Positions 3,961-63,279 of a stretch of 64,000 nucleotides of DNA are shown here, in pieces (the stretch's first letter is position 1; every line of letters begins with the position of its first letter). A program made the translations under genes and the position numbers. The stretch covers positions 124,001 to 188,000 of the forward strand of contig JABWCE010000001.1 in NCBI GenBank assembly GCA_013359235.1. The letters are read 5' to 3'. The notes under the pieces were generated by a model, which saw only the letters and a program-made list of their open reading frames with translations, was not told the DNA's origin and did no database searches. The DNA is from Bacteroidota bacterium (GTDB lineage Bacteria > Bacteroidota > Bacteroidia > NS11-12g > UBA9320).

Positions 3961-5196
3961 TCATAGGTTAATTTTCATACCAAGTCTTAGGGAGTTAGTA
4001 TAATTTCTTTGTTTTACTTCATATTTGTCAGAAAACGTATTGGTAATGCCTATTTTGAATTGAGGATTAGCAAAAAGTTGAATGTTTGTAGTAATGTATT
4101 TATTGTAAACCAAACCTAATATAGCGTTTAACGAATTTTTACGATATATATCAGGGCTTTGTCCTGCAATTGTATAAAAAGCATTATTCCCAAAATTATA
4201 CACTACTGTATTGGCAAAATATAATCTTCCGTAAGAAATGCCCGATTGAAGCTCAATATCTGTAAGCTCGTTTATATTATTAATTTTAATATCAAATATT
4301 AAAGGTAGTTCAAAATATGAAATATTGTTGTTAAACCGCAGATTAGAATATTCGGCATTAAGGTCTGGAGTTTCAAAATCAGGATAACCTTTGAAAAATT
4401 CATCATTTGCTTTGTTGTAATTTTTGCATAAAGTATTTTCATCTGGCTCTTTTAACAGAACAGATTCGCCTGTGTTTGTGTAATATAATCCTGTGTTTAA
4501 ATTTATATTTTTATTAATTCTATAAAACAAATCTAACCCGAAAGAATATTTCAAAAGTACATTGTTATTGGCATTTCGCGATTTTTCTGTTTGATAATAC
4601 CCATATTCAGATTTTTTTTTATTGATTTTATAATTAATCCTGCAATCTGACAAGCCTGTTGTAAGGCTCAATCCCAAAGCTATTTTGCTTCGTTTTGTAG
4701 TTTTTATCTCGGGCAATAAACCTATTTTGATGTTTTTGGGAAGGTAAACCGGTGTTGTATTAGTTTCGTCAAAAATTATTTTGAGCAATGGATTTATATT
4801 TATTTGTGAAAATTTGTTAGGTTTTATTTTGTTGTTTTTTTTAAGTTCATCTGCTTGAGTTTCGGGCAGTATAGGGCTTAACAATATTTGATTTTTCAAT
4901 AATTCTTCGGCTTTTTTACGGCTTTGCTCTAAGGTTTCGGTATTTTCAGTTTTTTTTGTTTCAAAATTTACAACTTCATTAGAACTTTCCTTTTTGGTTT
5001 TCTTTGTTTTTTCATTGGTATCACTGGCAAATAGCTTTGAAATTGAATAACTAATATTTTCGAAAAAATCAAAACCAGCTTTCCCCGAAAATAATTGAAT
5101 GCCTATTATCAAAAAGCCTACACTTGCAAGAATAGCAAATAAAAGAGAAGTGTTTTTCACTTTTTTTGATAATTTTTCTCTTTCTGCACTTCTCAT
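3961..5196 (-). CDS. membrane-anchored outer-membrane beta-barrel-like protein
   Basis: A 411-residue protein. The N-terminus is charged (MRSAEREKLSKK) and followed by one hydrophobic segment at about residues 16-36, with no clear cleavage site. A low-complexity Lys/Glu/Thr linker follows. The C-terminal half (about 165-411) has alternating aromatic/polar strands ending in NYTNSLRLGMKINL, like porin-family barrels of Bacteroidota with an anti-sigma-like N-terminal anchor. Specific function is not recognised. A TAAATTTG element (minus strand, 5214-5221) lies 17 nt before the start codon. Confidence 0.6.
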   Translation of the reverse strand: MRSAEREKLSKKVKNTSLLFAILASVGFLIIGIQLFSGKAGFDFFENISYSISKLFASDTNEKTKKTKKESSNEVVNFETKKTENTETLEQSRKKAEELLKNQILLSPILPETQADELKKNNKIKPNKFSQININPLLKIIFDETNTTPVYLPKNIKIGLLPEIKTTKRSKIALGLSLTTGLSDCRINYKINKKKSEYGYYQTEKSRNANNNVLLKYSFGLDLFYRINKNINLNTGLYYTNTGESVLLKEPDENTLCKNYNKANDEFFKGYPDFETPDLNAEYSNLRFNNNISYFELPLIFDIKINNINELTDIELQSGISYGRLYFANTVVYNFGNNAFYTIAGQSPDIYRKNSLNAILGLVYNKYITTNIQLFANPQFKIGITNTFSDKYEVKQRNYTNSLRLGMKINL

Positions 5197-5338: not shown

Positions 5339-6553
5339 TTAATTGTTATTGTCATTTTCTAAGGTTTTATCATCTTTTGTTAAACTTTGGCAATATTTTT
5401 CTAATTGTGTAGCTATGATATCCCAGTTGAACTTAGAAGTTGCTATTTCTTTCCCTTTTATTCCACAAGTTTCTCTTTGCATTTTTGAATCTAAAAGTTC
5501 AATGATTTTTGCAGCAAATAATTGAGGGTCTGTTTCCATAAATGCACCCATACCATTTTCAATTTCGAGCCCTTCAAAGCCAACATTAGTGCAAACTACA
5601 GGTATTCCCATAGCCATAGCTTCTATAACTTTATTTTGAGTGCCTGCACCAAATCGCAATGAAGAAACTACTACTGCTGCCTTGCTGTAATATTCGCCCA
5701 GATTTTTTACAAATCCGGTAACAACAATATTGCTACAGGCAAGATTTCTCACTTGTTTTACAGGCTTTTGCCCGGCTATAACAAATATTACATCGGATTT
5801 TATTTTCAATACCAACGGAAAAATTTCTTTAGTAAAATATACAACTGCATCCACATTCGGAGCATAATTCATATTTCCCGTAAACAGCAACACATTATCA
5901 ATTCCGTAGTTGTGTATTGTGTTTCCATACAATTCCAAATCAACACCATTTCTTAAAATTGCTACATTATTGCTTTTGTGTTCGTATTTTAAGTAATTCA
6001 AATCTTCTTTAGAACATACAAGACCAAGATTAAATTTACTTAAAATATGCTTTTCGTATTTATAAATTCGGTTGAATTCAATTTTTTGAAAAATTTTAAG
6101 AATAAAATTTGAACTTTTTTCAATTCTGCGTTTCCAATATAATGAGAAGGCATCGGGCAAATCAAGTATTCTGGGAATTGCTATTTCAGAAGTAAACTGA
6201 GCCATTCGCAAATGCTGAGTATGAATTACATCAATTTTGTTTTTGGCAACAAAATCTTCTAATGTATTTTTCATTTTATTGCTTTTGAAATAAGCTATTT
6301 GTAACGAAACATCCGAAAATATTGCCAAAAAACTGTTAAAATACGATTTCCATTTAGGCAGATATATAATTTTTACAGTTTTAAAAATATTTTCAAGTTC
6401 AGCTTTATACTTTAAATCTAATTTGGTTTCAGCAAAGGTAATCAAGTACAATTCGTTGTTTGTGCAGAGCCTTTTTGCAAGATTATAAATTTTAAGTTTG
6501 TCGCCTCTGTATGGCGGATAAGGAATCCTATTGGCAACAAATAAAATTTTCAT
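5339..6553 (-). CDS. glycosyltransferase family 4
   Basis: A 404-residue cytoplasmic glycosyltransferase of GT-B fold. The start MKILFVANRIPYPPYRGDKL is typical of GT4 enzymes that recognise a nucleotide-sugar acceptor system. The C-terminal half carries LLFTGNMNYAPNVDAV and a donor-binding region around PLRFGAGTQNKVIEAMAMG-like sequence (here SLRFGAGTQNKVIEAMAMG). It resembles the Stp1-like subgroup of sugar transferases, but substrate cannot be read from sequence. No other polysaccharide genes are next to it; the capsule locus in this window begins 52 kb away. Confidence 0.85.
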   Translation of the reverse strand: MKILFVANRIPYPPYRGDKLKIYNLAKRLCTNNELYLITFAETKLDLKYKAELENIFKTVKIIYLPKWKSYFNSFLAIFSDVSLQIAYFKSNKMKNTLEDFVAKNKIDVIHTQHLRMAQFTSEIAIPRILDLPDAFSLYWKRRIEKSSNFILKIFQKIEFNRIYKYEKHILSKFNLGLVCSKEDLNYLKYEHKSNNVAILRNGVDLELYGNTIHNYGIDNVLLFTGNMNYAPNVDAVVYFTKEIFPLVLKIKSDVIFVIAGQKPVKQVRNLACSNIVVTGFVKNLGEYYSKAAVVVSSLRFGAGTQNKVIEAMAMGIPVVCTNVGFEGLEIENGMGAFMETDPQLFAAKIIELLDSKMQRETCGIKGKEIATSKFNWDIIATQLEKYCQSLTKDDKTLENDNNN

Positions 6554-6573: not shown

Positions 6574-6623
6574 ATATAAAAAAATTGCGATTTAAATGGT
6601 TTAGCATATTGAATAAACCTTAT

Positions 6624-6721
6624 TCATGTTTACCCCAAAAACAAATAAATTTACAATAGAAAGATTTTAAATAGTTTTGTAAATAAAAATCAACAATGAA
6701 TTGGAAAATAACATCAGGATT
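6624..6721 (+). repeat. direct repeat copy A upstream of the helicase fusion
   Basis: This block matches 11663-11783 in the same orientation. Shared runs include CCCAAAAACAAATAAATTTA, AAGATTTTAAATAGTTTTGT and AATAAAAATCAACAATG, followed by a matching TTGGAAAATAA and ATCAGGATTA. Copy A lacks about 22 nt that copy B carries in its middle. The two copies bracket the 4.8-kb helicase gene. There are no terminal inverted repeats and no transposase. Confidence 0.85.
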
Positions 6722-6834
6722 ATCATTTAAAACTGCATTTTTTTTTCAGGATGAGATAGCGACTTTTTGGGCAACAATTAATAATTTAAATAGAAAACAA
6801 AAGACTATTACCAAATATATTCAGCAAATAGAAA

Positions 6835-9800
6835 ATGAATTCAATTGCATTCATTGATACCGAGATTGAGCCAAAGAGCCGAAAAATTCTTGACATTGGA
6901 AGTGTCAAGGGTGATGGAAGTTCTTTTCACAAAACTTCGGTTGCTGAGTTCATACAGTTTCTTAATGGGACTGAATTTATTTGCGGACACAATATTTTCA
7001 ATCACGACATAAAGTTTATTGGAAAGGCATTGACCGATGCAGGAGTTAATTCTGAAAACATCATTGACACTTTATTTCTTTCTCCCCTGCTATTTCCGAC
7101 AAAGCCGTATCATGCTTTATTAAAAGATGACAAACTTCAATCAGAAGACAGGAACAATCCTTTGAATGATTCAATCAAAGCAAAAGATTTATTCAATGAT
7201 GAAGTTGCAGCATTTAAACAAACTGACGAAACACTCAAACAAATTTTCTATTTGCTTTTGAAAGACAAGAAGGAGTTCCGCTCCTTTTTCCGTTTCATCG
7301 CATTCACAAGTTCAGGCACAGACCTTGAAAAACTGATTCGCCAGAAATTTGAAAATGAAATTTGTGAACATGTTGACCTGACAAAAATAATTTCAGAACA
7401 GCCGATTGAACTTGCTTACTGCTTATCACTTGTTAGTTCATTTATTGAACACAATAAAATTCATTCAATTACACCGCCTTGGGTGTTGAAAAACTATCCC
7501 GAAGTGGAACGGATAATGTTTCGTTTAAGAAACAAACCTTGTGTAAGCGGTTGTGAATACTGTAATCAGGCATTAGATGTAAATAAAGGCTTAAAAAGAT
7601 TTTTCGGTTTTGATTCTTACCGAAGTTATGGTGGCGAACCATTACAAGAAAAAGCAGTTAAAGCAACTATTAACAATAAATCAATTCTTGCTGTTTTTCC
7701 AACAGGAGGAGGAAAGTCAATCACGTTTCAAGTTCCATCTTTGATGAGCGGAGAAACTTCAAAAGGTTTAACAATTGTGATTTCGCCTTTGCAATCATTG
7801 ATGAAAGACCAGGTTGACAATCTTGAAAAAATTGGAATTACAGATGCAGTTACCATAAATGGTTTGCTTGACCCGATTGAAAGAGCGAAATCTTTTGAAA
7901 GAGTTGAAGATGGTTCAGCTTCTATTCTTTACATCTCTCCTGAATCATTGCGTTCACGAACAATTGAACGATTGATTTTGGGAAGAAAAATTGTTCGTTT
8001 TGTTATAGATGAAGCACACTGCTTTTCTTCGTGGGGACAAGATTTCAGAGTTGATTATTTATACATCGGTGATTTCATCAAACAAATTCAGGAAAAGAAA
8101 AATCTTGAAGATGGAATTCCAGTTTCATGTTTCACAGCAACAGCGAAACAAAAAGTTATTGAGGATATTCGTGACTACTTCAAAGAAAAACTTTCGCTTG
8201 ACCTTGAACTGTTCACTTCAAAAGCATCAAGAACAAATCTTCAATACAAAGTTTTTGAGAAAGGAGACGAAGAAGAAAAGTATCAGGCAGCAAGAGATTT
8301 GATTGAGGAGAAGAATTGTCCGACTATCATTTATGTTTCAAGGACACGAAAAGCATATTCACTTGCAGAACGCTTAACTGAAGATGGGTTCAACGCCAAA
8401 CCTTATCACGGCAAAATGGATGTTAAAGAAAAAACGGCTAACCAAAATGCTTTCATATCAGGCGAAGTTCCAATCATGGTTGCAACTTCTGCTTTTGGAA
8501 TGGGAGTTGACAAAAAAGATGTTGGCATGGTGATTCACTATGAGATTTCCGATTCACTTGAAAACTATATTCAGGAAGCAGGGAGAGCAGGACGAGATGA
8601 AAATATTGTTGCTGATTGTTTCGTGTTGTTTAACGAGGAAGACCTTAGTAAACATTTCATACTGTTGAATCAAACCAAACTTTCAATCAAAGAGATTCAA
8701 CAGATTTGGAAAGCGATAAAAGAAATTACAAGATTTCGTTCAACAGTTTCAAATTCCGCTTTAGAGATTGCACGAAAAGCGGGTTGGGATGATAATGTTG
8801 TTGAAATTGAAACGAGAGTTATTACAGCCATTGCAGCTTTGGAAGACGCAGGATACTTGAAACGTGGACAAAATATGCCGAGAATTTTTGCCAACAGTAT
8901 TCTTTCAAAAAATGCACAGGAAGCTATTGACAAAATCAATGCTTCCGAAAGATTTGAGGAGAGGCAAAAAGAAAAGGGAATAAGAATTATCAAGAAACTT
9001 TTTTCAAGTAAAAGCAGGAAGCAAACAAATGATGAAACTGGCGAATCAAGGATTGATTATATCAGCGACCATCTTGGAATTGTAAAAGAAGAAGTGATAA
9101 ACATTGTGAATCTTCTTCGTGAGGAAAAGATTTTGGCTGATGCAAAGGACTTAACTGCTTTTATTAAGAAAGGAGAAAACAAAAACCGTTCTCTTAATAT
9201 TGTTGAGGCATTTAGTAAGATTGAGCATTTCTTGCTTCCATTTTTTGAGGAACAGGAAAAAACATTTCACATAAAAGAACTAAATGAAGAAGCCGAATCA
9301 AAAGGTTGCGAAGATGTAACTACGAACAAACTTAAAACCATTATCAACTTTTGGGCAATCAAGAATTGGATTAAGCGACAGAATCTTGAGTACTCAAAAA
9401 ATCATGTTGTGATTCTCTCTCTGCATCCAAGAGAAATGTTGAAGGAAAAATTAGAGAAGCGACATGAATTGGCTAAGTTCACAGTTGAGTATCTTTATGA
9501 TAAAAGCAATCTGAATATTTCAGAAGATGATAAAGACAAGGAAGAAGTTTTGGTTGAGTTTTCAGTTCACGAACTGAAAGAAGAATTTGAAAAACGACCA
9601 AAACTTTTTGAAATGCATGTATCATTTGAAGATATTGAGGACACACTTTTTTATCTTTTAAGAATTGATGCCATAAAAATTGAAGGAGGATTTCTTGTTG
9701 TCTATAATAAACTGACCATTGAACGAGTTGAACAAGACAACTATAAAAAATATACGAAGGAAGATTATCGGATGTTAAATCAATTTTACGAAAACAAAGT

Positions 9801-11655
9801 TCAGCAAATTCATATTGTTGGAGAGTATGCAAAGAAGATGATAGACGATTACAAGGATGCTCTTCAATTTGTAGAAGATTACTTTCAGTTGAATTATACT
9901 TCATTTCTAAGAAAATACTTTCCGGGAAGCAAGATTGATAATTTAAAACTCAAAATGACACCTGGAAAATTCAGACAACTTTTCGGAGAGCTTTCACCAT
10001 CACAATTAAAAATCATTAATGACAACGAATCCAAATATATTGTTGTAGCCGCTGGACCTGGAAGTGGTAAAACAAAAGTGTTGGTTCATAAACTTGCTTC
10101 TTTGCTTTTAATGGAAGATGTTAAACATGAGCAATTACTTATGCTTACCTTTTCAAGAGCAGCAGCAACAGAATTTAAGAAACGATTACTTAAACTCATT
10201 GGTAATGCTGCCAATTACATTGAGATAAAAACTTTTCACTCCTATTGTTTTGACCTGTTAGGCAAGGTTGGAAGTTTAGAAAAATCAGATGTGATATTGA
10301 AAAAGACGATTGAGAAAATCAAAAACAAGGAAGTTGAAGCAAGCAGAATCACAAAAACTGTTTTGGTGATTGATGAGGCACAGGACATGGATGAAGATGA
10401 GTTTAATCTGATAAATACGTTGAGGGAACAAAATGAGGAAATGAGAGTGATTGCAGTCGGTGATGATGACCAAAATATTTACGAGTTCAGAGGAGCAAGC
10501 TCAAAATATCTTGAAATGTTTATTGAAGTAAACAAAGCAACCAAACATGAGTTGGTTGAAAATTACAGAAGCAAGAGCAACCTTGTTGATTTCACAAACC
10601 AGTTTGTGAAGCGAATTCAACACCGGCTGAAAGGCACCCCAATTATTCCAAAACAAACAGAAAATGGAAGAATAAAATTGGTTCGGTACCAAAGCAATAA
10701 TCTAATTACACCGCTTGTACAAGATATACGCTCGACCGGACTTACAGGAACTACTTGTGTACTGACAAAGACAAATGAGGAAGCATTACTAATTACCGGG
10801 CAACTTTTGAAAAAAGGTGTGCAAGCGAAGCTCATCCAGACCAATGACAGTTTCAGCTTAATTAACCTTTTGGAAGTTAGATTCTTTTTAAGCCAGTTGA
10901 GCTTAGCTGATGATGTTTTCATAATCAACGATGAAGTTTGGGCTAATGCAAAGCGGGTATTGTTAAGCAAGTTTCGGAACAGTACAAAATTAGAAGTTTG
11001 CCAAAACATCATTAACGATTTTGAAGCCACCAATCCAAAGAAGAAATACAAATCTGATTTTGAAGCTTTCATTCGTGAATCCAAGTTGGAAGATTTCATT
11101 AATGAGAATGGAGAAACAATTTTAGTTTCAACTATTCACAAAGCCAAGGGCAAAGAGTTTGACAATGTTTTCCTGATGCTTGAAAACTTCAACATTGCAA
11201 CAGACGAAGCCATACGGCTGTTGTATGTGGCAATGACAAGGGCGAAACAAAATTTGACCATTCATTTAAACTCAAACTTTCTTGACAATATAAAAAGAGA
11301 AAATTTAGAGCGAGTTGTTGATAGTGAAATCTATATGCGATCGGATGAGTTAATAATGAACTTAACACATGAAGATGTCAATCTTGGATATTTTGAATAT
11401 GTTCAGCATCGTTTAAAAGATAGCATTAGTGGAGACGAACTTGTTGTGCAGAATGACGGATGTGCAAATTCAAATGGTGATTTGGTATTAAAGTTTTCAA
11501 AGAAGTTACTCGAAACTATTCAAAAACATAAGGAGATTGGATTTGAATTGAAAAGTGCAAAAATAAATTTCGTTGTTTACTGGTTTAAAGAGGAATCTGA
11601 ACAAGAGATTAATATTATTTTACCTGAATTATACTTTGAAAGGAGGCATGGATAA
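6835..11655 (+). CDS. DEDD exonuclease - RecQ helicase - UvrD-like helicase fusion
   Basis: A 1606-residue single polypeptide in three parts. (1) Residues 1-125 look like a DEDD 3'-5' exonuclease: D8 and E10 in FIDTE, D58 in GHNIFNHD, then PYHALLKDD and NPLNDS. (2) Residues about 250-600 are an SF2 RecQ core: FFGFDSYRSYGGEPLQEKA, Walker A PTGGGKS with K294, DEAH at 392-395, QEAGRAGRD at 580-588. The classical RecQ zinc-binding cysteines are absent after it. (3) Residues about 1050-1500 are an SF1 UvrD/Rep core: AGPGSGKT with K1079, DEAQ at 1180-1183, GDDDQNIYEFRGA, STIHKAKGKEFD at about 1432, LLYVAMTRAK. A Cys cluster C236-x3-C240-x2-C243 precedes the RecQ part. The gene sits alone between direct repeats and looks somewhat richer in GC than its neighbours. 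A role in DNA repair or in defence against phage/plasmid DNA is inference. Confidence 0.9.
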   Translation: MNSIAFIDTEIEPKSRKILDIGSVKGDGSSFHKTSVAEFIQFLNGTEFICGHNIFNHDIKFIGKALTDAGVNSENIIDTLFLSPLLFPTKPYHALLKDDKLQSEDRNNPLNDSIKAKDLFNDEVAAFKQTDETLKQIFYLLLKDKKEFRSFFRFIAFTSSGTDLEKLIRQKFENEICEHVDLTKIISEQPIELAYCLSLVSSFIEHNKIHSITPPWVLKNYPEVERIMFRLRNKPCVSGCEYCNQALDVNKGLKRFFGFDSYRSYGGEPLQEKAVKATINNKSILAVFPTGGGKSITFQVPSLMSGETSKGLTIVISPLQSLMKDQVDNLEKIGITDAVTINGLLDPIERAKSFERVEDGSASILYISPESLRSRTIERLILGRKIVRFVIDEAHCFSSWGQDFRVDYLYIGDFIKQIQEKKNLEDGIPVSCFTATAKQKVIEDIRDYFKEKLSLDLELFTSKASRTNLQYKVFEKGDEEEKYQAARDLIEEKNCPTIIYVSRTRKAYSLAERLTEDGFNAKPYHGKMDVKEKTANQNAFISGEVPIMVATSAFGMGVDKKDVGMVIHYEISDSLENYIQEAGRAGRDENIVADCFVLFNEEDLSKHFILLNQTKLSIKEIQQIWKAIKEITRFRSTVSNSALEIARKAGWDDNVVEIETRVITAIAALEDAGYLKRGQNMPRIFANSILSKNAQEAIDKINASERFEERQKEKGIRIIKKLFSSKSRKQTNDETGESRIDYISDHLGIVKEEVINIVNLLREEKILADAKDLTAFIKKGENKNRSLNIVEAFSKIEHFLLPFFEEQEKTFHIKELNEEAESKGCEDVTTNKLKTIINFWAIKNWIKRQNLEYSKNHVVILSLHPREMLKEKLEKRHELAKFTVEYLYDKSNLNISEDDKDKEEVLVEFSVHELKEEFEKRPKLFEMHVSFEDIEDTLFYLLRIDAIKIEGGFLVVYNKLTIERVEQDNYKKYTKEDYRMLNQFYENKVQQIHIVGEYAKKMIDDYKDALQFVEDYFQLNYTSFLRKYFPGSKIDNLKLKMTPGKFRQLFGELSPSQLKIINDNESKYIVVAAGPGSGKTKVLVHKLASLLLMEDVKHEQLLMLTFSRAAATEFKKRLLKLIGNAANYIEIKTFHSYCFDLLGKVGSLEKSDVILKKTIEKIKNKEVEASRITKTVLVIDEAQDMDEDEFNLINTLREQNEEMRVIAVGDDDQNIYEFRGASSKYLEMFIEVNKATKHELVENYRSKSNLVDFTNQFVKRIQHRLKGTPIIPKQTENGRIKLVRYQSNNLITPLVQDIRSTGLTGTTCVLTKTNEEALLITGQLLKKGVQAKLIQTNDSFSLINLLEVRFFLSQLSLADDVFIINDEVWANAKRVLLSKFRNSTKLEVCQNIINDFEATNPKKKYKSDFEAFIRESKLEDFINENGETILVSTIHKAKGKEFDNVFLMLENFNIATDEAIRLLYVAMTRAKQNLTIHLNSNFLDNIKRENLERVVDSEIYMRSDELIMNLTHEDVNLGYFEYVQHRLKDSISGDELVVQNDGCANSNGDLVLKFSKKLLETIQKHKEIGFELKSAKINFVVYWFKEESEQEINIILPELYFERRHG

Positions 11656-11662
11656 TTCTAAT

Positions 11663-11783
11663 ACATGTTTGTCCCAAAAACAAATAAATTTACAATAAAA
11701 AAGATTTTAAATAGTTTTGTAAACTGTAAAAAATACTTATTGTAAATAAAAATCAACAATGTATTGGAAAATAATATCAGGAT
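11663..11783 (+). repeat. direct repeat copy B downstream of the helicase fusion
   Basis: Same-orientation partner of 6624-6721, starting 8 bp after the helicase stop codon. It contains about 22 extra bases after AAATAGTTTTGTAAA, around an ACTTATTGTAAA segment that partly duplicates the flanking GTAAA. It ends just inside the intergenic space before engB. The pair suggests insertion or recombination rather than a shared promoter, because only one copy precedes a plus-strand gene. Confidence 0.85.
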
Positions 11784-11807
11784 TAACGCTAAAAACCTAT
11801 CAATCTG

Positions 11808-12401
11808 TTATTTGTTAAAACAATCTGATATAAATTTTAAAATTTCTATTTTGCCTTGCCCATTTAAAGCAGATGTGCAAATTAAAGGTGGTATATTTTC
11901 CCAATATTTTCTCAGTTCATCTTTCATTTTTTGAACATTTTGATTAACAAATTTGCCTTTATCCTTATCGGTTTTTGTAAAAATTAAACAAATAGGCACA
12001 CGGTTTTCTCCGCATTTATTGATAAATTCAATATCAGATTTTTGAGGTTCAAGCCTGCTGTCAACCAGAATAAAAAGGCAATACAGATTTTTACGGCAAA
12101 TTATGTAATTATTTATAAGTTCTTCAAATTTGCTTCTTTCTGTTTTTGAAACTCTTGCATACCCATACCCTGGTAAATCGGCAAAATATATCGAGTCGTT
12201 TATAAAAAATTGATTTATAAGTTTGGTTTTACCTGGCATTGACGATGTTTTTGCCAAATCTTTTTTATTGCAAATCATATTTATTAACGAAGATTTACCC
12301 ACATTGCTTCGCCCAATAAAAGCAAATTCGGCAAATTGGTCATCTTTCATCTTTTTGCAATCATCAAATGATTTGAGAAAAACAGCTTTTTTAATTTCCA
12401 T
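11808..12401 (-). CDS. engB: ribosome biogenesis GTP-binding protein YsxC/EngB
   Basis: A 197-residue TRAFAC-class GTPase used in large-subunit ribosome assembly. G1 is GRSNVGKSS (residues 30-38), G3 is DLPGYG (75-80), G4 is TKTD (142-145), and a late SALNG forms G5. Length and motif spacing fit the EngB/YihA family. It is transcribed away from ubiE across about 90 bp. The minus strand holds a near-consensus AATCTTTG before the start. Confidence 0.95.
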   Translation of the reverse strand: MEIKKAVFLKSFDDCKKMKDDQFAEFAFIGRSNVGKSSLINMICNKKDLAKTSSMPGKTKLINQFFINDSIYFADLPGYGYARVSKTERSKFEELINNYIICRKNLYCLFILVDSRLEPQKSDIEFINKCGENRVPICLIFTKTDKDKGKFVNQNVQKMKDELRKYWENIPPLICTSALNGQGKIEILKFISDCFNK

Positions 12402-60813: not shown

Positions 60814-63279
60814 GTGGAAATCAACAATTCAGAAATAGAAAACAGACAAAGCGAAGGTATAAATTTTAAGTCAATAATAGGGCTTTTAAGGGTTTACTGG
60901 ATACTTTTTGTAGTGTGTATTACAATCGCATTAATAGATGCTTATATAATAATAAGGTATTCAACTCCATATTATAAAATACAAAGCGATATTTTATTAT
61001 CAAACCAAACAAAAGGAAAAGAAGGAGCAGAAATTTTAGGAGCCCAAGGCTTTTCTGATGCTTTTAACCCATGGGATCCCACCTATGTAAACGATAAAAT
61101 TGCAACTATTAAATCATTAAAATTTGTTAAACCAGTTATTGAGAAGCTCAGATTTGACCATACTTACATAACTAAAGGCAATATTAAATCATCAGAAGTT
61201 TACGAAAAAGAACTTCCAATTAAACTATATTACAGACCATTTGAACCTTCTGTTTATAATTATAAATTTTTTATAAAACTAAACAAAAACAGTTTTTCAA
61301 TCAAAGTAGTTGATGGCGAAGAAGTTATTTACAATAATAAGAAAAATTTGTATAATGACTCTATAATATTTAAAAATTGTGTTTTATATATTGAATCAGA
61401 TGTTAATTCTGAATTATGGGATAAAACATTAAACATTGGAGATTTAACAGTAACATTACAAAACATAAATAATGTTGCAAAAAGCTATACATCAAACCTA
61501 AATGTAACGCAAAAACCCAAAACAAAAATTTTAGAATTATCAATTGAAGCTAGCGAATCAAAAAAAGGTTTGGATTTTATTCAAGAACTTTCAAAGGCTT
61601 TTATTGAAAAAGGGTTAGAAGAAAAGAAGCAAAAATTCAGCAGTTCTCTTATTTTTATAAACGAACAATTAAAAAAAGTTGAAGATGCTTTAGATAATTA
61701 CGAATTTGATCTTGAAACATTTAAAAAAACAACCGGATTATTTGATTTTCTTTCAGAAAGTGAAATAATGCTCACAGAAAAAACATCATTAGAAGAGAAA
61801 CTTAAAGAACAAGAAATATTACTAAAAAAAGTTATTGCTCTTAAAGATTATGTTCAAAATCATCAGGATTTATCAGGGCTTGCACCATCAACTTTTGGAA
61901 TTGCTGACCCATTATTAGTGCCACTAATAAATGAACTTAGCAAAGTAAGTATAGAACTTAATGAACTTGGATATGATTTTAACCAAAATACCATACAATA
62001 TAAAAAATATAAACAAAGATATACTACCGCAAAAAATTTATTAATTGAAAATATTAATAGTATAATATCAAGTACTAATTCTATTCTTAGCTCATATAAA
62101 ACAGCTTTAGCTACCCTTAATGCCAAAGTGAACAAATTGCCCGATTATGAGAGAAAAGGATTGGGAATGAAAAGAAAATCAAGTATTCAAGAAAAAATAT
62201 ATTTGTTACTATTAGAAAAGAAATTCGAAAATGAAATTGCAATTTCAGGAACTATAAGCGATTATTCAATTTTGAATGAAGCTGAAATTTTAGGTCAAAC
62301 AAAACCAAATTCAAAAAATATTTATCTTTTTTCAATTATCTTAGGTATTTTGGTTCCTGCACTCTATATTTATCTTAAAATATTTTTTGACAATAAAATA
62401 AGAAGCCGTGAACAAATTGAAAAATACACAAAAATTCCATTCTTGGGTACTATACCACATCATCATTCTGATAATATAATGGTTTTTAAAGAAAACTCGA
62501 AATCAATGATTGCTGAATCTTTCAGAAACCTTAGATCAAATATTATGTTTATGTTAAAAAATGAAAAACCTTCAAATGTAATTCTTGTAACATCAACCAT
62601 TAGTGGCGAAGGTAAAACATTTTGCACTTTAAATTTGGCTCAGGTGCTTGCAATTTCAGGAGTAAAAGTTGTTGTATTAGGCTTAGATTTAAGAAAACCC
62701 AGATTGCATTTGAGTTTTGATTTGAAAAATGATATCGGTATAAGCACTTTTCTAACTGGTAGAGCTGAGTTAGAAAATATTATTTTTAAAACTAATTATG
62801 AAAATATTGATGTAATGCCATCTGGTCCTGTACCTCCCAATCCTTCAGAGCTTATCCTTACTGACAAAATGAAAGATTGTATTGAAAAATTAAAAAGTGA
62901 ATATGATTATGTTTTATTAGATACAGCACCATTAGGCCTGGTATCTGACTCTATTGACCTGATGAAAATTACAGACCTGAACATCTATGTAATGCGTGAA
63001 AGTTATTCAAATATTGCTTCGATAGGGTTTGTAAATGAATTTTACGAAAAACAAAATATTAAAAATATTGGAATTGTATTAAATGATTCAACATTTGCCG
63101 GTATAAAATATGGCTATGGCTATGGTTATGGTTATGGTTATGGTTATGGTTATGGTTATGGTTATGGTTATGGTTATGGTTATGGTTATGGTTATGGTTA
63201 TGGTTATTATGATGACGATAGAAAAACTAATAAAAAGAAAAATTGGCTTAATAAAATAAACAGCATATTTAAGAATTAA
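60814..63279 (+). CDS. Wzc-like polysaccharide co-polymerase and BY-kinase with (YG)16 tail
   Basis: An 821-residue inner-membrane protein read from GTG at 60814. The N-terminal Wzz domain is flanked by membrane helices (about 28-48 and about 506-524), with a long periplasmic coiled coil between (about 260-450). The cytoplasmic kinase domain has Walker A SGEGKT with K601, Walker A' GLDLRKPR with D625, and Walker B LLDTAP with D703. The tail is 16 Tyr-Gly units (766-797) plus Tyr-Tyr, then a lysine-rich end. Tail tyrosines are autophosphorylated in this family and control chain length. The perfect repeat is unusual: most family members have irregular Tyr clusters. Confidence 0.93.
63109..63204 (+). 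repeat. hexanucleotide microsatellite encoding (Tyr-Gly)16
   Basis: Sixteen in-frame six-base units: the first two TATGGC, then fourteen identical TATGGT, ending before TATTAT. Being a multiple of three, length changes add or remove Tyr-Gly pairs in the kinase tail without shifting frame. Confidence 0.97.

Follow-up and report, generated by a model that had tools for sequence, protein, structure and literature searches.

A helicase gene in the 64-kb window analysed here (the whole stretch of 64,000 nucleotides from a Bacteroidota genome) is enclosed by two direct repeats, A and B, that we take with considerable confidence to be decayed MITEs. The arrangement is best read as the fossil of a MITE-flanked cassette that lies at a synteny break, the MITEs having helped to bring the helicase to its present place; we give this reading a probability of about 0.55. 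The odd repeat pair would then be explained as the likely fossil of a MITE-linked gene capture.

Two direct repeats around one gene

Searches in a region of 6.6 kb and in the window as a whole recovered A and B in the same orientation, with no long plausible gene other than the helicase between them (Table 1), as the original prediction had stated. Two ungapped blocks align, 6610-6671 with 11649-11710 (81% identical) and 6677-6733 with 11740-11796 (89% identical). With gaps, the repeats are 74% identical over 148 columns, at an E-value of 1.5e-26 in a search against the whole 64-kb window, versus 0.001 for the next-best other match. Copy B had been placed 8 bp downstream of the helicase stop; the shared block was found to begin at about 11649 and hence to overlap the last helicase codons and the stop. 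On its right side, A runs on to about 6759 as a match to the dispersed family described below.

Table 1. Location of the repeats, genes and other features in the window
Feature	Position	Strand	Remarks
Glycosyltransferase flank	5339..6553	-	Block of glycosyltransferase, hypothetical gene and M16 peptidase; elsewhere in congeners
Repeat A, probable decayed MITE copy	6610..6759	+	Without 23 bp present in B; right end still recognisable
TAGTTTTG, promoter-like word in A	6672..6679	+	Fits TAnnTTTG; identical word at 11712 in B
53-aa ORF	6696..6857	+	Starts inside A, overlaps helicase start
Helicase gene, 1606 aa	6835..11655	+	Putative DEDDh-like N-terminus, RecQ-type (~245-640) and UvrD-type (~1050-1490) regions
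Repeat B, probable sister MITE copy	11649..11796	+	Right end lost; overlaps helicase stop codon; ends 11 bp before engB stop
engB flank	11808..12401	-	Block of engB, ubiE, hypothetical gene and tgt; elsewhere in congeners

The two copies differ in length by 23 nt plus one, a difference first ascribed to an internal insertion of about 22 nt in the second copy. Of the eight other copies in the alignment, seven match the 23-nt stretch missing from A wholly or partly; the one on contig C29 has no sequence there. Because these seven copies have sequence at this place, A probably lost the 23 nt, and an insertion in B was rejected. The 53-aa ORF had no Pfam match above the cut-off and is probably a by-product of the MITE. 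The possibility that A and B form a coding repeat was rejected as well: the ORF that starts in A changes frame in the other copies (by eye), so the shared unit would be DNA and not a peptide. The word TAGTTTTG agrees with what we take to be the -7 promoter consensus of Bacteroidota.

No window site for inverted termini in A or B was found at up to six substitutions, indels not being allowed. The right end of A aligns with the right end of the family, and the outer left terminus of A and the outer right terminus of B are unrecognisable. The absence of inverted termini was thus correctly predicted for A and B themselves, but it does not extend to the family, some other copies of which keep both termini. 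No target-site duplication was seen by eye at A and B, where the element borders are uncertain after decay. Among the window ORFs of 80 aa or more in the first 20 kb and of 150 aa or more in the rest, none was judged by eye to encode a transposase, also as predicted. Far from the repeats, at 60814-63279, the window potentially encodes a polysaccharide-export-kinase-like protein (by eye) with a long GY-repeat run at its end.

Membership of the repeats in a dispersed MITE family

When A, B and a third copy were used to search the genome (2.65 Mb in 44 contigs), nine family members were obtained, namely A, B, two copies on contig C12, and five copies that stand singly among other genes on C24, C29, C28, C8 and C18. 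Apart from B, matches at E 0.005 or weaker were left out of the count; a strict pattern search recovered a single copy. On C18 the match extends over just 33 bp (E 1.2e-4), and the C8 copy consists of 58 bp with two facing 26-bp termini. On C24 (L003, 1501-2955), the MITE copy supplies an ATG that lies in frame with a 484-aa secreted-looking ORF and may act as its start (by eye).

Related copies retain inverted termini of 25-26 bp, which face each other in the C8, C28 and C29 copies and in a 208-bp copy of the congener G001. At no more than three mismatches the family terminus occurs at four sites in the own genome, compared with none for the reversed control. At no more than two it occurs in 14 of 58 genomes, the own genome included, with a single reversed-control site overall. 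In G001 the terminus bounds both the 208-bp element, which carries no gene, and a 1.40-kb element, while in G037, from another family, it bounds elements of about 1.47 kb. Right-end sub-repeats are common to the own-genome copies and these longer elements (by eye). ORFs of the 1.40-kb element matched rve_3 over the cut-off and rve below it; the listed G037 element has a single ORF of at least 100 aa (107 aa), whose match does not reach the cut-off. In neither of these two parent elements was an intact full transposase ORF found.

A profile built without A and B ranked A first (E 1.3e-7, 6690-6756) and B second (E 0.0068) among the window matches, the best E-value in the reversed window being 0.68. 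Beyond the right end, A and B resemble the other copies weakly, and B alone reaches E 0.0068. No member of the A/B subfamily was detected in 21 relatives. When ten copies were aligned, A and B grouped as sisters with a support of 1.0 and an identity of 0.84, compared with 0.48-0.70 to the others, and they seem to go back to a single copy or a single event that is not recent.

As expected of MITEs, the elements are short (about 150 bp each), dispersed in nine genome copies and without a transposase gene of their own, and the family shares its ends with the 1.40- and 1.47-kb elements as putative autonomous parents. Terminal inverted repeats are present in the family and are not recognisable in A and B. 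Because the profile built without them ranks both on top, and given the family termini and parent elements, A and B are very likely decayed MITEs. They would not be intact MITEs but relatives of such elements, since their left termini are unrecognisable. Membership in a dispersed family speaks against the suggestion that the repeats are a target duplication made by a large recombination event.

The helicase gene and its foreign origin

Residues D8, E10, D58, H93 and D98 are kept in all 16 aligned helicase sequences, that of the window included, a pattern which we take to be the DEDDh exonuclease motif. The protein may therefore be a triple fusion of exonuclease, RecQ and UvrD parts, although the best solved-structure match of the N-terminus (encoded at 6835-7530), a PolC exonuclease, is weak (E 0.1).

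Full-length copies of the helicase were found in 3 of the 58 genomes searched, i.e. the own genome, G006 and G037. Compared with the window, G006, of the same genus, is 72% identical in the helicase and 66% in engB, while the corresponding values for G037 are 86% and 44%. At the level of sequence, the analysis shows that the helicase gene was horizontally acquired. A scan of 84,980 species genomes yielded 243 stretches with some relative of the helicase. The best 80 of these have identities of 68-87% (best segment) and come mostly from records named Bacteroidota, and also from Brocadia, Fibrobacter and Syntrophaceae. No close carrier was found in the collections of phages, where 12 records match (covering 22-28% of the protein in the 10 matches listed), or of plasmids, where 62 records match at E 1e-50, five of them with at least 80% cover and all below 60% identity. 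Judged by titles and abstract openings on integron, fusion, cassette and defence topics, no literature description of this helicase as a cassette was found.

The gene lies at an apparent synteny break

The block engB-ubiE-hypothetical-tgt is conserved in all six congeners, tgt being cut by a contig end in one. On the 3' side of engB, where 1.7 to 3.5 kb could be read, none of the six has a match to the helicase. The glycosyltransferase and engB lie on different contigs in every one of them. In the four congeners with long contigs, the glycosyltransferase adjoins the same hypothetical gene as in the window, its far side is occupied by other genes for about 6 kb, and the neighbours of both flanks are other genes than in the window. 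Only part of this hypothetical gene is present in G005, and the search of G002, with its short contigs, did not recover it.

The empty glycosyltransferase-engB site expected from the original prediction was accordingly not encountered in the six congeners. Because the two blocks lie apart in these genomes, the window junction does not look like an ancestral junction into which a gene was dropped. The chromosome appears to have been rearranged at the helicase.

Origin of the MITE-helicase-MITE arrangement

We propose that non-autonomous MITEs of an rve-type insertion sequence came to flank an acquired helicase gene in direct orientation, the helicase having either arrived together with two MITEs or been captured between them. 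This could have happened by composite transposition via the MITE ends, with the transposase acting in trans, or by recombination of a molecule carrying a MITE and the helicase with a resident MITE. The two flanking blocks would have been joined in the same event or in a later one. A and B have the form of a composite transposon in that two related elements flank a passenger, but they do not offer usable outer ends. Because the ends have decayed, the unit is most likely immobile now. The identity of only 84% argues against A and B being a recent, active pair, and at this value a deletion between them by homologous recombination would be possible and is expected to be rare.

The two copies on C12 form a second direct pair, 1.2 kb apart, around a RhuM-Fic gene. 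They are not sisters, their identity being 0.62. The RhuM-Fic gene itself (L055, 746-2070) has PDC-S23 as its best PADLOC match. The original prediction had called for a search for further genome copies and named, as a refuting result, a repeat scattered as an ordinary intergenic element unrelated to the gene. Seven copies besides A and B do exist, and the repeats thus belong to such a dispersed family, although with the C12 pair it is not wholly unrelated to accessory genes. In simulations with nine randomly placed copies, two same-orientation pairs no more than 5.2 kb apart arose with a P of about 0.002, in a test chosen post hoc.

It is also conceivable, with a smaller share of probability, that the MITEs inserted around a resident foreign gene and played no part in moving it, one of the two copies being derived from the other through a local hop or a duplication. 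The five single copies would fit such a history, as would the C12 bracket, which looks like two separate insertions, and the presence of the helicase elsewhere with no family member nearby: of 80 loci, 2 have a family terminus (at most five mismatches) no more than 600 bp from the gene. However, two same-orientation pairs, each around one accessory gene, are improbable by chance according to the post hoc simulation, and the sister relation of A and B fits a single event better than two.

A recombination between MITEs that joined two distant blocks, with the helicase marking the break and having come with one partner, seems unlikely. The distribution of the glycosyltransferase and engB blocks over different contigs in all six congeners, and the other genes lying beyond both blocks in four of them, would agree with such a rearrangement, but a reciprocal MITE recombination leaves one MITE per junction and not two sisters.

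Direct repeats around the helicase in other genomes

The 80 loci compared comprise the 80 from the scan minus L153, L184 and L198, which are cut within the gene, plus L116, L117 and the window. A total of 75 loci had 250 bp on both sides and were used to count brackets by close direct repeats, i.e. repeats within 450 bp on both sides at E of at most 1e-6. The helicase was bracketed in 6 of the 75 loci, compared with 3 of 324 other ORFs of at least 200 residues in the same loci (p 0.002). When the homologous loci L148 and L155 were counted once, the numbers were 5/74 and 3/324 (p 0.007); further kin, such as L116/L124, L141/L143, L162/L199 and L172/L181, were counted separately, and one of the three control matches is in L155. 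Such a bracket is absent from the remaining 69 loci, and G037, with the nearest helicase copy, has neither a close direct repeat nor a family terminus beside the gene.

The bracketing repeats are unrelated between hosts, being palindromic in G006, an array in L136 and a 197-bp repeat in L133. In G006 (L117), the palindromic 64-bp repeat occurs at 421-484, 4700-4763, 9669-9732 and 11542-11605 and separates a block with HNH, HIT, DnaB-like and reverse transcriptase genes (by eye), the helicase and a HipA-like gene. In L136 (5697-14324), six direct-repeat copies separate the helicase and several small toxin-antitoxin-like genes (by eye). Homology stops near the gene in some genome pairs, for example at -80 and about +37 in L159 versus L162 or L199, whereas longer flanks are common to L116 with L124 and to L141 with L143. 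L159 and L162 carry the same GC-rich hairpin motif downstream of the gene, in opposite orientations (by eye). The idea of a gene-cassette boundary was therefore near the mark as regards a horizontally acquired helicase with homology ending close to it in some hosts.

These data on brackets across hosts are leads and not proof of a common mechanism. It is a rather speculative thought that the helicase is a single-gene mobile unit which lodges between direct copies of any dispersed repeat that a host offers, perhaps by way of circles that recombine with the repeats already there and with the help of its own exonuclease and helicase parts in uptake. Such a unit would span the MITEs of the window, the palindromic repeat of G006, the other families and the integron-like borders of L126 and L128.

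Those borders, short inverted sequences GTTGGGGCA / TGCCCCAAC around the helicase in 2 of 80 loci, together with hairpins in the upstream flanks (z -3.8 and -2.9) and integron integrases over the cut-off in the L131 and L134 genomes (2 of 13 searched versus 0 of 14 controls), raised the possibility that A and B are sites of the attC type around an integron-like helicase cassette. This is very improbable and largely refuted for the window: the own genome (G000) has no integron integrase over the cut-off (best TIGR02249 match 99 bits, cut-off 265), the folding of A is no better than that of its shuffled versions (z -0.24) and that of B only somewhat better (z -2.57, one of two copies), both match the MITE family, the L136 repeat has no special fold either (z 0.93), and the L126 and L128 hosts have no integrase over the cut-off. 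A and B were therefore rejected as attC sites.

In a wider view, brackets of unrelated direct repeats are more frequent around this widespread helicase than around neighbouring ORFs, and the same MITE family brackets two different accessory genes in one genome. If the enrichment holds in a larger sample, the travel of single large genes without mobility genes of their own would become directly testable.

Comparison with known systems

The MITE-helicase-MITE arrangement appears to be a decayed mobile cassette that falls into a known general class, and not a new element type. The parent elements are presumably IS3-like: with their length of about 1.4 kb, OrfA/OrfB-like ORFs with an rve-type domain and TGTC...GACA ends, we take them to resemble the IS3 family, although the parent copies examined here have broken or partial transposase ORFs. 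As in integron cassettes, a single gene lies between related sites and the sites differ among hosts, but the own genome has no integrase over the cut-off and A has no attC-like fold.

TIMEs are short elements without transposase that mobilise DNA and give composite-transposon-like units (PMC4133298). A and B are likewise short, without transposase and arranged in a composite-like manner. However, TIMEs are derived from the Tn3 family and their mobilisation of DNA has been demonstrated, whereas A and B would have an rve-type parent and have decayed termini. Mobile insertion cassettes and MITE-flanked integrons (PMC5444012) carry passenger genes within or between the ends of non-autonomous elements. 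The helicase of the window is similarly a passenger between such ends; the cassette described there has recognisable 22-bp inverted repeats, while neither A nor B retains its two ends.
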